Made by a program: the position numbers and the translations under genes. A stretch of 64,000 nt of DNA from an uncultured Paracoccaceae bacterium (GTDB taxonomy: Bacteria; Pseudomonadota; Alphaproteobacteria; Rhodobacterales; Rhodobacteraceae): NCBI GenBank assembly GCA_947500825.1, contig CANMTR010000008.1:62001-126000 (forward strand). The letters are read 5' to 3'. Each line of letters opens with the position of its first letter. Within the stretch, counting starts at the first letter, position 1. Below, one piece after another: positions 52,456 to 63,686 of the stretch. A model generated the notes under the pieces. That model had not been told where the DNA came from. It did not search any database and saw only the letters and a list, made by a program, of their open reading frames with translations.

Positions 52456-52488
52456 GCCGGGCGCCTCGGCGCTCAGGGGGCGCCCGGC
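52456..52488 (-). terminator. Hairpin at the end of the ten-gene peptide operon
   Basis: On the minus strand GCCGGGCGCC (52488-52479) and GGCGCCCGGC (52465-52456) form a perfect 10-bp stem whose 13-base loop contains the gntR stop codon. It can terminate or protect the operon transcript; no clear T-run follows. Confidence 0.45.
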
Positions 52489-53165
52489 GCGTCGTGCCCG
52501 CGGCCGCGCAGGACGGCGCGATTCACGTCGAGGAGGTGCACCTCCATGTGTCGCGCGGCCTCCGCCCCGTCGCGGGCGGCGATGGCCTCGAACAGGACGC
52601 GGTGCTGGGCGCCGAACCTGGTCATCGCCTCGGGGGTATGGCTGAGCCGGCGGCTCGCGTCCCAGGTGGCGAGCTTGCGGACGGTGCGGATGGAATCGAA
52701 GATCTCCAGGAACAGGGGATTCCGGGCCGTCAGGGCGATCTGGTAGTGGTAGATGTCGTCGGCGGCCTCGTAGGAGCCCTGCCATTCGAGGTTCAGCGTC
52801 GCCCGCATCGCCTGTTCGAGCCGCGAGAGGTCGTCGCTGCGGGCGCGCAGGGCGGCGAGGGCGGCGAGGGCGGGCTCGATCTCCAGCCGGACCTCCATGA
52901 TGTCCTGGGGCGTGACCTCGCGCGCGATGCGGCCCAGGGGGCCGGAGCGGTCGTGGGTGGGGGGGGCCGCGAAGGTCCCGCGGCCCTGGCGGCGATAGAC
53001 GACGCCTGCCTCCTCCAGGTCGTCGAGCGCCTGGCGCAGCCTGGCCCGGCTGATCCCGAAGCGGTCGGCCAGGTGCCGTTCGGGCGGCAGGCGGCCGTCG
53101 GCGGGAAGCTCGCCCGAGGCGATGAGGGTGGTCAGCCCCTCGGTGATGCGGCGCACGTCGCTCAT
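52473..53165 (-). CDS. GntR-family (FadR subfamily) transcriptional regulator
   Basis: A 230-residue regulator. The N-terminal winged helix shows LPADGRLPPERHLADRFGIS and RARLRQALDDLEEAGVVYRRQGRG; the C-terminal FCD domain is all helical with DIMEVRLEIEPALAALAALR, DIYHYQIALTARNPLFLEIF and HRVLFEAIAARDGAEAARHMEVHL, including the metal-binding Asp and His positions. It is the last gene of the peptide/GGT operon (start overlaps tauE-like stop), so it probably controls that operon, and the inverted repeat at the operon start is a candidate target. Confidence 0.92.
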   Translation of the reverse strand: MSDVRRITEGLTTLIASGELPADGRLPPERHLADRFGISRARLRQALDDLEEAGVVYRRQGRGTFAAPPTHDRSGPLGRIAREVTPQDIMEVRLEIEPALAALAALRARSDDLSRLEQAMRATLNLEWQGSYEAADDIYHYQIALTARNPLFLEIFDSIRTVRKLATWDASRRLSHTPEAMTRFGAQHRVLFEAIAARDGAEAARHMEVHLLDVNRAVLRGRGHDAPGAP

Positions 53166-53995
53166 AGTGCCCCGTAGAGATCCCGGAACATCCGCAGGGA
53201 GGTGGCCAGCAGGAACAGCCCGAAGCCCAGGCGCAGGCCGCGGCGCGGAATCCGGTGGGCGATGGCCACGCCCAGGCGGGCGAAGGGGACCGTCAGGGGG
53301 ACGATGAGCAGGGCCGCGGCGATGTTCACGTAGCCCAGCGACAGCGGCGGCAGCCCGGACGCGCCGAGGCCGGTCAGCACATAGGTCACCGCGCCGGGCA
53401 GCCCGATGACGAAGCCGATGGCCGCCGACGTGCCCACCGCGCGCCGGATGTCGTAGCCCAGGAAGTTGAGGAGCGGCACGCAGACCGTGCCGCCGCCGAT
53501 CCCCATCATCGCCGAGATCGCCCCGGCCACGACGCCGAAAGCCGCCCAGACGGGGCGGGAGAAGCTCCGCGCCGGGCCTGTGCCGGGACCGCCGCGCAGG
53601 ATCATGTCGCAGGCCACGAGGAGGGCCACGACCGCGAACACGCCCACCAGCACGAGGCCTGAGACGACCCCGCCCAGAAGCGCCCCGATCACCACGCCCG
53701 CCAGGATCGACGGCCCCCAGAGGCGCAGGAGCGCGAAGTCGACCGCGCCCTTGCGGTAGTGGCCCCAGGCGGAGCTGAGCGAGGTGAAGACGATGGTGGC
53801 GAGCGAGGTGCCGACCGCGACCTGCATGACCCGGGCCGTGTCCATGTCAGTGAGCGACAGCGCGAGGTAGAGGGCGGGGACGATGACGATGCCGCCGCCC
53901 ACCCCCAGGAGGCCCGCGAGGGTCCCCCCGAGGATGCCGGCGGCGATGGCGGGAAGCGCTATCGCCGCGACGAGCTGTGCAACCTGTCCGTCCAT
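53162..53995 (-). CDS. TauE/SafE family sulfite/anion exporter
   Basis: A 277-residue membrane protein with about eight hydrophobic segments in two similar halves: GGTLAGLLGVGGGIVIVPAL near the start and AISAMMGIGGGTVCVPLL in the middle are the paired GxGGG motifs of the family. Studied members export sulfite, sulfoacetate or related organic anions. Its place in a gamma-glutamyl peptide operon suggests export of a sulfur compound released from a Cys- or taurine-containing peptide; that is an inference. Overlaps gntR by four bases and starts one base after the DUF1028 gene. Confidence 0.9.
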   Translation of the reverse strand: MDGQVAQLVAAIALPAIAAGILGGTLAGLLGVGGGIVIVPALYLALSLTDMDTARVMQVAVGTSLATIVFTSLSSAWGHYRKGAVDFALLRLWGPSILAGVVIGALLGGVVSGLVLVGVFAVVALLVACDMILRGGPGTGPARSFSRPVWAAFGVVAGAISAMMGIGGGTVCVPLLNFLGYDIRRAVGTSAAIGFVIGLPGAVTYVLTGLGASGLPPLSLGYVNIAAALLIVPLTVPFARLGVAIAHRIPRRGLRLGFGLFLLATSLRMFRDLYGAL

Positions 53996-61558: not shown

Positions 61559-62676
61559 GGCGTCGTCTCCTGCGGGGCGGGCGAACGGGGGCGGGTCGGG
61601 GTGCCGGCGCTGGCCTCGGCGTAGAGCGCGAAGCGGGCGCGGGCGCCCTCGGTCAGGCCGGCACCCCCTTGCGCGGGGGCGGGGGGCGCCTGCTCCGCGA
61701 TCTCCTCGAGGAAGTGGCAGGCGGCGCGGTGACCGGGCGCGGTGGCGGCATCGCGCAGCTCGGGCACGTCCGTCCGGCAGGCCTCGCGCGCGAAGGGGCA
61801 GCGGGTGTTGAACCGGCAGCCCGGGGGCGGATCGACCGGGCTCGGCATCTCGCCGGTCAGCGGGATCTGGTGGCGGGTGCGGCCGTGCTCGGCCACCGGG
61901 ATCGCCGACAGGAGCGCCATCGTGTAGGGGTGGCGGGGACGCGCGAAGATCTCGTCCACCGGCCCCTCCTCGACCACGCGGCCCAGATACATGACCATGA
62001 CGCGGTCGCTCATGTGGCGGATCACGGCGAGGTCGTGGGCGATGACCACGAGGGTGAGCCCGAGCCGGTCGCGCAGGTCCGCGAGCAGGTTGATGACCTG
62101 GGCCTGGACCGACACGTCGAGGGCCGAGACCGGCTCGTCGCCCACGATGAGCCTGGGGCCCGAGGCGAGGGCGCGGGCGATGCCGATGCGCTGGCGCTGG
62201 CCGCCCGAGAACTCGTGGGGGTAGCGGTCGGCGTGCTCGGGGCGCAGGCCCACCTGGGAGAGCAGCTCGGCGACGCGCCCGCGGCGCTCGCGGGCCGAGA
62301 GGTCGGGCGCGTGGGTCTCCAGCGGTTCGCCCACGAGGCGGCCGACGGTGGCGCGCGGGTTGAGGGAGCTGAACGGGTCCTGGAAGATGAACTGCATGTC
62401 GCGGCGCAGCTCGGTCAGGGCGCGGCCCCGGGCATGGTCGATCTGGCGGCCCTCGAACGTCATTTCGCCCGAGGTGGGCGGGATCAGGCGCATGAGCATC
62501 CGCGCCAGCGTGGACTTGCCGCAGCCCGACTCGCCCACGATGGCCAGCGTTTCGCCGCGGCGCACCGACAGCGACACGCCGTCGACCGCGCGCAGGACCT
62601 TCGGCTTCTTCAGGAGGGAGCCGCCCACGGCGAAGTGGCGGGTGAGCCCGTGGGCGGTGAGGATGTCGTCGCTCAT
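61555..62676 (-). CDS. Peptide-type ABC transporter ATPase DppF
   Basis: A 373-residue ABC ATPase. Walker A is [25 protein letters not shown] is the Q-loop region, [15 protein letters not shown] the signature, and [14 protein letters not shown] Walker B. The C-terminal oligopeptide domain has [19 protein letters not shown], the conserved cysteine motif of DppF/OppF. The last 45 residues are a Pro/Ala-rich extension ([14 protein letters not shown] onward) beyond the usual end. Overlaps both neighbours by four bases. Confidence 0.93.
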
Positions 62677-63686
62677 GTCCGCTCCAGCATCTCGTCGAGG
62701 GGGGCGAAGTGGCACGCGGCGCGGTGGCCGTGCCCGAAATCGCGCTCGGGCGGGGCCGTGTCGCAGACCGCCTGCGCGAAGGGGCAGCGGGTGGAGAAGC
62801 GGCAGCCGGGCGGCATCGTCTCGATCGTGGGCACGGTGCCCGACACGGTGGCCAGCCGCTCGCGCGGGCCCGAGAGGCGCGGCATCGAGGACATGAGCCC
62901 GATCGTGTAGGGGTGCTGGGGGTCGTTGAAGACCCGCTCGGCCGGGCCCGCCTCGACGATGGTGCCGGCATACATGACGGCGACGCTGTCGGCGATCTCG
63001 GCCACCACGCCCAGGTCGTGGGTGATCATGATCGTGCCCATCCCCGTCTCGGCCTGCAGCTCGCGGATGAGGTCGAGGATCTGGGACTGGATGGTGACGT
63101 CGAGCGCGGTCGTGGGCTCGTCGGCGATCAGGAGCGCGGGGTCGTTGGCGAGCGCCATGGCGATCATCACCCGCTGGCGCATGCCCCCCGAGAGCTGGTG
63201 GGGATACTCGGACATGCGCGCCTCGGGGGCGGGGATGCCCACGCGGGAAAGCATCTCCACCGCGCGGTCGCGCGCGGCCGCCTGCGACACGTCGCGGTGC
63301 GCCCGGACCGCCTCGGCGATCTGGTCGCCCACCCGGAAGGCGGGGTTGAGCGAGGTCATCGGCTCCTGGAAGATCATGGCGATGTCGGCGCCCCGGCGGG
63401 CGCGCAGCATGGCCTGGTCCCCCAGGTCGTAGGGCTCGCCGCGAAAGCGGATGTCGGCCTCGCGGATGCGGGCGACGTTGGAGGGCAGAAGGCCCATGAC
63501 GGCGAGCGAGCTGACGCTCTTGCCGCAGCCCGACTCCCCCACGATGCACAGGGTCCGCCCGGCCTCGACCGCGTAGCGCACGCCTTCGAGCAGGTTCGTG
63601 TCGGACGCGCCGAAGGCGAGACTGAGGCGACGCACGTCGAGCAGCGGGGCCGGTGTGGAGGGATCTGCAACCAATTCCATGACCAT
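62673..63686 (-). CDS. Peptide-type ABC transporter ATPase DppD
   Basis: A 337-residue ABC ATPase. Walker A is [29 protein letters not shown] the Q-loop, [15 protein letters not shown] the signature, [13 protein letters not shown] Walker [14 protein letters not shown] the switch region, and [19 protein letters not shown] the C-terminal cysteine motif. First gene of the operon. The start is ambiguous: ATG at 63686 or, two codons on, at 63680; both lie in the loop of an inverted repeat and have only AAGA upstream as ribosome-binding bases. Longer upstream frames read through promoter DNA. Confidence 0.92.

Follow-up and report, generated by a model that had tools for sequence, protein, structure and literature searches.

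We analysed a 64,000-nucleotide window from the genome of an uncultured Paracoccaceae bacterium (GenBank assembly GCA_947500825.1, contig CANMTR010000008.1, positions 62,001 to 126,000; G000:C8:62001-126000 of a 3.93 Mb genome), and describe here a ten-gene operon on its minus strand (52473-63686) that combines a peptide-type importer with two predicted N-terminal nucleophile (Ntn) hydrolases. One of these, which carries the gamma-glutamyltransferase (GGT) family name, groups with LmbA2991 of Streptomyces lincolnensis rather than with canonical GGTs; the other is a DUF1028 protein.

Read along its own strand, the operon opens with ATPases of the dppD type (62673..63686; start codon uncertain) and dppF type (61555..62676), both matching Pfam ABC_tran and oligo_HPY and the latter also scoring above the cut-off of NCBIfam PRK11308. 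These are followed by two binding proteins assigned by Pfam to SBP_bac_5, sbp1 (60041..61558) and sbp2 (58468..59982, TTG start), and by permeases of the dppB type (57456..58400; BPD_transp_1 and BPD_transp_1_N) and dppC type (56557..57459; BPD_transp_1 and OppC_N). The GGT-superfamily Ntn hydrolase comes next (602 residues, 54752..56560; Pfam G_glu_transpept, 372 bits), then the DUF1028 protein, which has an Ntn-hydrolase-like fold and a threonine, Thr2, after its initiator Met (250 residues, 53997..54749; PF06267, 221 bits against a cut-off of 26.2). The last two genes encode a TauE/SafE-family membrane protein, which we treat as accessory (277 residues, 53162..53995; PF01925, 167.5 bits against a cut-off of 32.6), and a GntR regulator of the FCD subfamily, the putative regulator of the operon (230 residues, 52473..53165; Pfam GntR 63.7 bits, FCD 73.4 bits). 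An earlier model-made annotation, the sequence-only reading, had proposed this operon, and the open reading frames of the window together with Pfam scores above cut-off confirm all ten genes in position, strand and family. Its description of the packing as mostly 1-4 base overlaps stands for five junctions with 4-base overlaps (dppD/dppF, dppF/sbp1, dppB/dppC, dppC/GGT and tauE/gntR); elsewhere there are gaps, of 1 base at DUF1028/tauE, 2 bases at GGT/DUF1028, and 58 and 67 bases on the two sides of sbp2 (sbp1/sbp2 and sbp2/dppB).

At the head of the operon lies an operator-like palindrome, ACCAATCCAAGAATGGT (63682..63698), with one mismatch to ACCAAT-N5-ATTGGT, a probable GntR site. The dppD start falls inside or beside it, the candidates being 63686, 63680 or a position further in. 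Since the palindrome lies over candidate starts, the leader could be very short, or dppD could begin further in. By eye, a weak -10-like hexamer stands just before the palindrome (63680-63707, minus strand), and a TTGACA lies upstream of it (63730-63725, minus strand).

The GGT-like enzyme belongs to the LmbA2991 clade

The nearest solved structures to the GGT-like protein by sequence are 6J3A and 6J3I (599 and 597 bits), both titled LmbA2991 in the structure search. Identity to LmbA2991 of S. lincolnensis (6J3A) is 50% over 623 columns, and the predicted model of the window protein (predicted local distance difference test score, pLDDT, 88.7) matches the LmbA2991 structures with a TM-score of 0.89 by query and 0.92 by target. 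In a 35-row tree, whose long branches among rows outside the clade drew a warning from the tree program, the window protein and LmbA2991 fall into one 27-row clade with support of 100/100, separate from E. coli Ggt, from a canonical GGT encoded in the same genome and from rows resembling structure 2NLZ.

Relative to E. coli Ggt, the window protein keeps the catalytic threonine (T391, here T412) and the oxyanion glycine pair (G483/G484, here G493/G494), while R114 is replaced by Q86, T409 by S430, Q430 by R450, D433 by M453 and S462/S463 by T472/T473, and N411 falls in a gap. We take R114, N411, Q430, D433, S462 and S463 of E. coli Ggt to be its gamma-glutamyl-binding residues, with R114 holding the alpha-carboxylate and D433 the alpha-amino group. 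Among the 42 clade sequences aligned, Q86, T412, R450, M453, T472, T473, G493 and G494 are invariant, and S430 and the gap at N411 are likewise constant; E. coli Ggt and a canonical copy (L126) carry R and D where the clade has Q86 and M453. Also invariant in all 42 are G410, D411 and T412, which include the Asp-Thr self-cleavage motif, and self-cleavage is predicted to occur between D411 and T412. LmbA2991 has this motif too, together with the same substitutions in the glutamate pocket. In the part of PMC4568574 available to us, R114, N411 and S462 are listed among the divergent sites.

The protein scores 238.2 bits against the GGT model NCBIfam TIGR00066, below the cut-off of 357.85. By eye, its start, MTTRGTMTDFTTRP, has no signal peptide, in agreement with the sequence-only reading. 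The genome's separate canonical GGT (L004, contig C13) serves as an internal control for the residue losses, since the RETAP, NNELTDF and SSM motifs are all present in it and, by eye, it has a signal-like N-terminus. The window protein shares the fold, the catalytic threonine and the oxyanion glycines with canonical GGTs (E. coli Ggt and the copy on C13), but differs from them in having no visible signal peptide and no gamma-glutamyl-binding residues, and in standing on a separate branch. A third GGT-family gene of the genome (L003, contig C1) lies on the 2NLZ-like branch.

Two further groups of relatives have an arginine at the position of R450. The first is HpxW (solved as 5HFT), which we take to be an oxamate hydrolase; its large chain matches the window protein at 29% identity, only its small chain was aligned, and it stands outside the 35-row tree. 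The second comprises the 2NLZ-like proteins, of which one row (L069) is without the canonical R114, N411 and D433, and copies of which are able to stand in for the LmbA2991-type gene beside DUF1028. Both groups differ from the window protein in sequence (27-29% identity), and the 2NLZ-like rows form a separate branch.

Within the literature searched, LmbA2991 is named only in PMC5519988 and in its authors' reply. The available portion of PMC5519988 reports in vitro hydrolysis of a C-C bond by Ant6 and by LmbA2991, likely via an oxalyl-Thr intermediate, with oxalic acid identified as a co-product for Ant6 and the same cleavage found for LmbA2991; the Discussion in that portion calls the intrinsic role of LmbA2991 unclear. 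According to a further paper from this group (PMC6085292), gamma-glutamyl activity is absent from LmbA and Ant6. LmbA and Ant6, neither of which is in our tree, serve antibiotic biosynthesis, whereas the window gene sits in a GntR operon with DUF1028.

The operon is conserved in the order and carried on plasmids

In an order-level survey of 292 genomes, for which our statistics (co-occurrence, tree and site counts) take no account of kinship, a tight DUF1028 clade (54-100% identity) is found in 40 genomes, leaving out G204 (37%, L075) and G006 (a partial match of 85 residues); with distant copies at E <= 1e-10 the number is 143, from a search in which the listing of weak matches is incomplete. 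The GGT clade is present in 76 of the 292 genomes (77 at E <= 1e-60, of which one was excluded at 35% identity; the matches left out are G070 and the second one in G207, at 35-36%). The GGT clade accompanies the DUF1028 clade in 37 of 40 genomes, against 39 of the 252 others (Fisher p = 3.7e-22, uncorrected for relatedness). Among the 39 DUF1028-clade loci besides the window, DUF1028 adjoins an orthologous GGT in 34 (same strand, <300 bases) and a 2NLZ-like GGT in three (L051, L069 and L070), and has no adjoining GGT in two (L059 and L071). The four transporter genes are on the same strand in 33 of the 39, and 32 of the 39 have a GntR relative in the same orientation as DUF1028 and no more than 9 kb from it. 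Operon order and strand are kept across these relatives. In other families of the class (L149-L154), the order is GGT-DUF1028-dppD-dppF-SBP-dppB-dppC, so that the DUF1028-GGT pair is kept where gene order differs and also where the GGT has been exchanged for a 2NLZ-like one. The linkage on which the sequence-only reading was to stand or fall is thus conserved in other genomes, as far as both the GGT (34/39) and the transporter (33/39) are concerned. Our literature searches, which reached few subscription journals, turned up no account of this operon.

A phylum survey detected the GGT clade in 10 of 249 genomes at >=48% identity (G365 and G502, at 33-34%, being left out). The operon also occurs on plasmids, with DUF1028 and GntR and without TauE in Tritonibacter mobilis, and with DUF1028, TauE and an FCD regulator in Sulfitobacter sp. 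D7. GGT matches at E <= 1e-100 were present in 80 of 72,556 plasmid records, and the frequent plasmid carriage suggests that the GGT clade is an exchangeable catabolic trait. Plasmid carriers of the clade include Sulfitobacter, Tritonibacter, Loktanella, Jannaschia, Paracoccus and Rhizobium (L311-L313). At five loci (L040, L047, L052, L054 and L073), a second Opp-type system and an amidase-family gene (c9) follow downstream of the operon, in some of them with M20 (c12) and FmdA-type (c7) genes.

Not all genes of the window operon are equally constant. A tauE match at >=50% identity occurs in six of the 39 relatives, so that seven of 40 operons carry the gene when the window is counted; we therefore rejected TauE as an obligatory part and kept it as an accessory one, whereas the sequence-only reading had made it the exporter of the pathway. 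Nothing beyond the TauE family name points to the sulfur-containing anion that had been suggested as its cargo. The gene also occurs beside GGT in L107-L109 and L116.

The importer has the full Opp/Dpp component set by Pfam, with two permeases, two oligo_HPY ATPases and SBP_bac_5 binding proteins. It differs from the named Dpp, Opp and Gsi systems in that its genes score below their curated cut-offs, except for the broad DppF-type model PRK11308, and in that it has two binding proteins. The NCBIfam profiles GsiB, GsiC and GsiD reach at best 196.7, 276.9 and 283.4 bits, below cut-offs of 594, 463 and 484. Compared with the 33 relatives with a same-strand transporter, sbp1 is an extra copy. Because sbp1 and sbp2 are 64% identical and each of those 33 relatives has exactly one match to sbp2 (at >=54% identity), the pair looks like a local duplication.

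The most distant conservation was seen in actinobacteria. A search of named genomes with the GGT alignment gave 580 stretches coding for relatives, of which we considered the best 80, 74 of them titled Streptomyces and the rest actinobacterial. In at least five (L182, L202, L224, L225 and L236), from some Streptomyces and Amycolatopsis, the same type of transporter lies beside the LmbA2991-type gene, with 43-54% identity to the window for permeases and ATPases and 37-42% for the binding protein; three more (L185, L196 and L221) have the two ATPase genes alone, and eight loci with weaker ABC (ATP-binding cassette) transporter matches (25-36%) were left out of the count. The transporter and the LmbA2991-type hydrolase are the widest shared core seen. 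By eye, about a third of these 80 stretches (for example L158, L164 and L175) have dihydropyrimidinase-, nitrilase- and nucleobase-transporter-like genes upstream of the LmbA2991-type gene; these pyrimidine/hydantoin-like families have 25-28 members, and a gene on the opposite strand often lies between them and the LmbA2991-type gene.

DUF1028 has a conserved threonine after the initiator Met and several gene contexts

The window DUF1028 is the only match to the family in its genome. It starts Met-Thr2, as the sequence-only reading had noticed. All 55 aligned homologues share Thr2; the residue before it is Met in 54 of them and Val in the remaining one, as its start was called. A Foldseek search with its AlphaFold2 (AF2) model (pLDDT 96) returned 2IMH (SPO2555) as best match (E 4.3e-19), followed much more weakly by HslV (E 6e-4) and proteasome subunits, so that the predicted structure fits an Ntn-hydrolase fold. 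SPO2555 resembles the window protein in fold (chain A, TM-score 0.81 by query and 0.89 by target) and in the Thr after the initiator Met, but is only 31% identical to it. The fold assignment is not new, since SCOPe already places SPO2555 in its own subfamily among the N-terminal-Thr Ntn hydrolases, according to the accessible part of the review PMC9140057, which describes the protein as so far uncharacterized, a possible Ntn-hydrolase subfamily without peer-reviewed data. Within the literature searched, 'DUF1028' and 'PF06267' occur in no paper, and 'SPO2555' in PMC9140057 alone.

Elsewhere, DUF1028 keeps other company. The phylum survey gave 31 DUF1028 places above cut-off besides the window, of which we took 28 as loci with 1.5 kb on either side (L274-L301), leaving out three places without loci and L302, which is below the cut-off. 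DUF1028 adjoins RidA in 18 of the 28, a GGT-family gene in seven and an Opp/GntR arrangement in one; two have none of these, and one of the two (L279) carries weakly similar ATPase genes. Given that RidA is the commoner neighbour here (18/28 against 7/28 for GGT), we rejected DUF1028 as a general partner of GGT. Distant copies within the order differ from the window copy in their neighbours, which are either a divergently oriented, different Opp system accompanied by an M20 hydrolase or RidA: among the first 20 such loci (L076-L095) of more than 100 listed, an Opp-type system is beside 12 and RidA beside seven, with neither at L078. M20-type hydrolase genes accompany eight of the 12 Opp-type loci (c15), four of the seven RidA loci (c45) and seven of the 18 short-flank RidA loci. 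All of these gene contexts would be compatible with a DUF1028 that takes part in hydrolysing amide-type substrates. The RidA-DUF1028 arrangement is a second conserved context for DUF1028 in the phylum, in which a RidA-family gene immediately precedes it and an ArgE-like M20 gene often follows (L280-L284, L287, L288 and L290-L300).

A palindrome marks operon starts and an FmdA-type amidase gene

With up to one mismatch, ACCAAT-N5-ATTGGT has 43 matches in the 2.19 Mb of our 111 loci. Two lie inside genes and were excluded; the other 41, in 40 loci, stand at an operon start, before dppD, gntR or ggt, or between divergent DUF1028 and dppD. Scrambled-arm controls gave 0-4 matches per draw (20 draws, 19 distinct). 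The site is also present between the divergent units of L069 and L070, which have the 2NLZ-like GGT. We scanned 30 chosen genomes completely and found a perfect site in 26, and just one in 22 of them; 20 of these 22 single sites are at the operon or at ggt, while a reversed control pattern matched in one of the 30 genomes. The palindrome is probably the site bound by the GntR protein. It ties TauE to the regulon despite the frequent absence of the gene, since it precedes ggt-tauE-gntR in L107-L109 and, as an extra site in G180 (L266), a separate tauE-gntR pair 71% and 46% identical to that of the window.

Extra perfect sites were found in a few genomes. In G127 and G077 they fall within one and the same type of gene. 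G180 has one flanked by unrelated genes, and G150 has two, located in or just behind genes with no obvious connection. In G097, an ABC-transporter-like gene starts ~195 bases after the site (names by eye). We treated all of these as chance matches.

If one mismatch is allowed, the genome of the window contains two sites: the one in the window and a perfect one at G000:C4:117687-117703, between an FmdA/AmdA-type gene and a third copy of the binding protein. This second site and its amidase gene were beyond the view of the sequence-only reading. This third copy (L265:8034-9547, contig C4), behind the palindrome, has by eye an early frameshift and is followed by a transposase-like gene. The FmdA-type protein of this genome is 63-72% identical to one encoded near GGT in 18 of the 111 loci, on the same strand in 17, at distances of 1-13 bases after GGT (L113 and L110) to as much as 9.5 kb; a representative scores for PF03069. 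Leaving out FmdA matches at <=44% identity, the GGT clade is present in 28 of 37 genomes with this FmdA-type gene, against 48 of 255 without it (p = 1.1e-11, uncorrected).

In the remainder of the window, a candidate IclR-like regulator gene (by eye; 50899-51722, plus strand) is split across two frames (open reading frames 50899-51297 and 51294-51722). An Rfam search and ARAGORN, run on the window for RNA families and tRNA genes, returned no matches. A sigma-70 scan likewise gave no promoter match (shuffles, 0.3), and there was one terminator-like site (shuffles, 1.5).

Discussion

Our results support a single unit that imports a compound and hydrolyses it in the cytoplasm by means of two Ntn hydrolases, which upholds the general architecture proposed by the sequence-only reading. 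We hold it somewhat likelier than even that the operon belongs to a pathway under GntR control for taking up an amide-type compound and hydrolysing it in steps, with an LmbA2991-type enzyme, DUF1028 and an FmdA-type amidase. In such a substrate-inducible catabolic operon, the Dpp/Opp-type ABC importer and its two binding proteins would import a small molecule that contains an amide. Acting in the cytoplasm, the LmbA2991-type hydrolase would cleave itself before Thr412 and attack a substrate carbonyl through an acyl-Thr intermediate. DUF1028, its Thr2 presumably freed by removal of the initiator Met, may act on the substrate or on the product, and the FmdA/AmdA-type amidase, whose gene lies at another place in the genome after a copy of the palindrome, would remove a further amide nitrogen. 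Where present, TauE may move the resulting anion. The GntR/FCD protein would sit on ACCAAT-N5-ATTGGT over the dppD start until released by an inducer. We infer the substrate class, the order of steps and the direction of TauE transport, as we do self-cleavage and GntR binding at the palindrome.

Several observations weigh against this proposal. The GGT clade is often found by itself: 39 of the 76 genomes that have it are without this DUF1028 clade, and of 39 loci from these genomes only nine show adjoining transporter genes; among all 41 loci fetched for GGTs outside DUF1028 loci (L107-L147, two of them from DUF1028 genomes), the transporter is present in 11. In the best 80 actinobacterial loci, DUF1028 and TauE have no match, and 72 are without a matching transporter in reach. 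The palindrome motif was derived from the same related loci, so that its 41 sites are non-independent; four of the 30 scanned genomes have no perfect site, and in the window's own genome, where the window site itself has one mismatch, the reversed control also matches once at one mismatch. As to the amidase, nine of the 37 genomes with this FmdA-type gene lack the GGT clade, and in G105, G166 and G194, where the FmdA-type gene is away from the operon, the sole perfect site is at the operon. Substrates of the binding proteins are not readable from SBP_bac_5-type families.

What acyl group the first enzyme might handle is a matter for conjecture. Because Ant6, a relative of LmbA, releases oxalate in vitro and LmbA2991 performs the same cleavage, our guess is an acyl group of the oxalyl or 2-oxoacyl kind, but this activity of relatives is possibly promiscuous. 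The corresponding narrower pathway, in which the LmbA2991-type enzyme, DUF1028 and the FmdA-type amidase would successively break down an oxalyl- or 2-oxoacyl-amide brought into the cell, with a single GntR operator in control, is a tentative proposal that we consider unlikely as it stands. Similarly doubtful is a full oxalyl-amide catabolism, with import of an oxalyl or oxamoyl compound, formation of oxalyl-Thr, release of oxalate and its export by TauE, and nitrogen recovery by DUF1028 and the FmdA-type amidase. It would draw on the oxalic acid formed with Ant6 and the same cleavage by LmbA2991 (PMC5519988, available portion). The arginine that HpxW and 2NLZ-like proteins align with R450, the pocket of row L069, the three loci at which DUF1028 has a 2NLZ-like enzyme as neighbour instead of an LmbA2991-type one, and the recurrence of TauE beside GGT are all consistent with it. 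Against it, the evidence is indirect, with HpxW outside the tree and aligned by its small chain alone, and we know of no oxalate export by this branch of TauE.

If the importer were a common Dpp system for peptides from the wall or the environment, and the Ntn hydrolases general amidases, this would also account for the Dpp/Opp architecture and for the M20 and amidase genes near some operons. We regard such peptide recycling as improbable, as palindrome sites are few per genome, the transporter and the LmbA2991-type gene occur together in two phyla, and an unusual active site is strictly conserved across the 42 aligned sequences. The gamma-glutamyl pathway of the sequence-only reading, in which an imported compound loses glutamate to GGT and is cleaved further by DUF1028 before TauE exports a sulfur anion, is very unlikely and was rejected: the G_glu_transpept fold with its catalytic Thr, the weakly Gsi-like permeases and TauE family membership favour it, but R114, N411, Q430 and D433 are replaced in all 42 aligned clade members, the TIGR00066 score (238 bits) is under its cut-off and the Gsi scores are far under theirs, the enzyme falls in a clade with LmbA2991, the genome has a separate canonical GGT, and TauE is found in only seven of 40 operons.

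In returning to stepwise hydrolysis of an amide-type compound as our preferred reading, we note that a single locus makes two questions testable, the function of DUF1028 and the native role of LmbA2991. The GntR inducer should be the substrate or a product of the pathway, and the palindrome offers a direct way in. More generally, the locus is a warning that a GGT annotation alone is insufficient for naming gamma-glutamyl pathways. The LmbA2991 clade is closely related to enzymes that cleave a C-C bond in the biosynthesis of lincomycin and anthramycin. The oxalyl- or 2-oxoacyl-amide version, if true, would give this clade a native role and a branch of DUF1028 its first.

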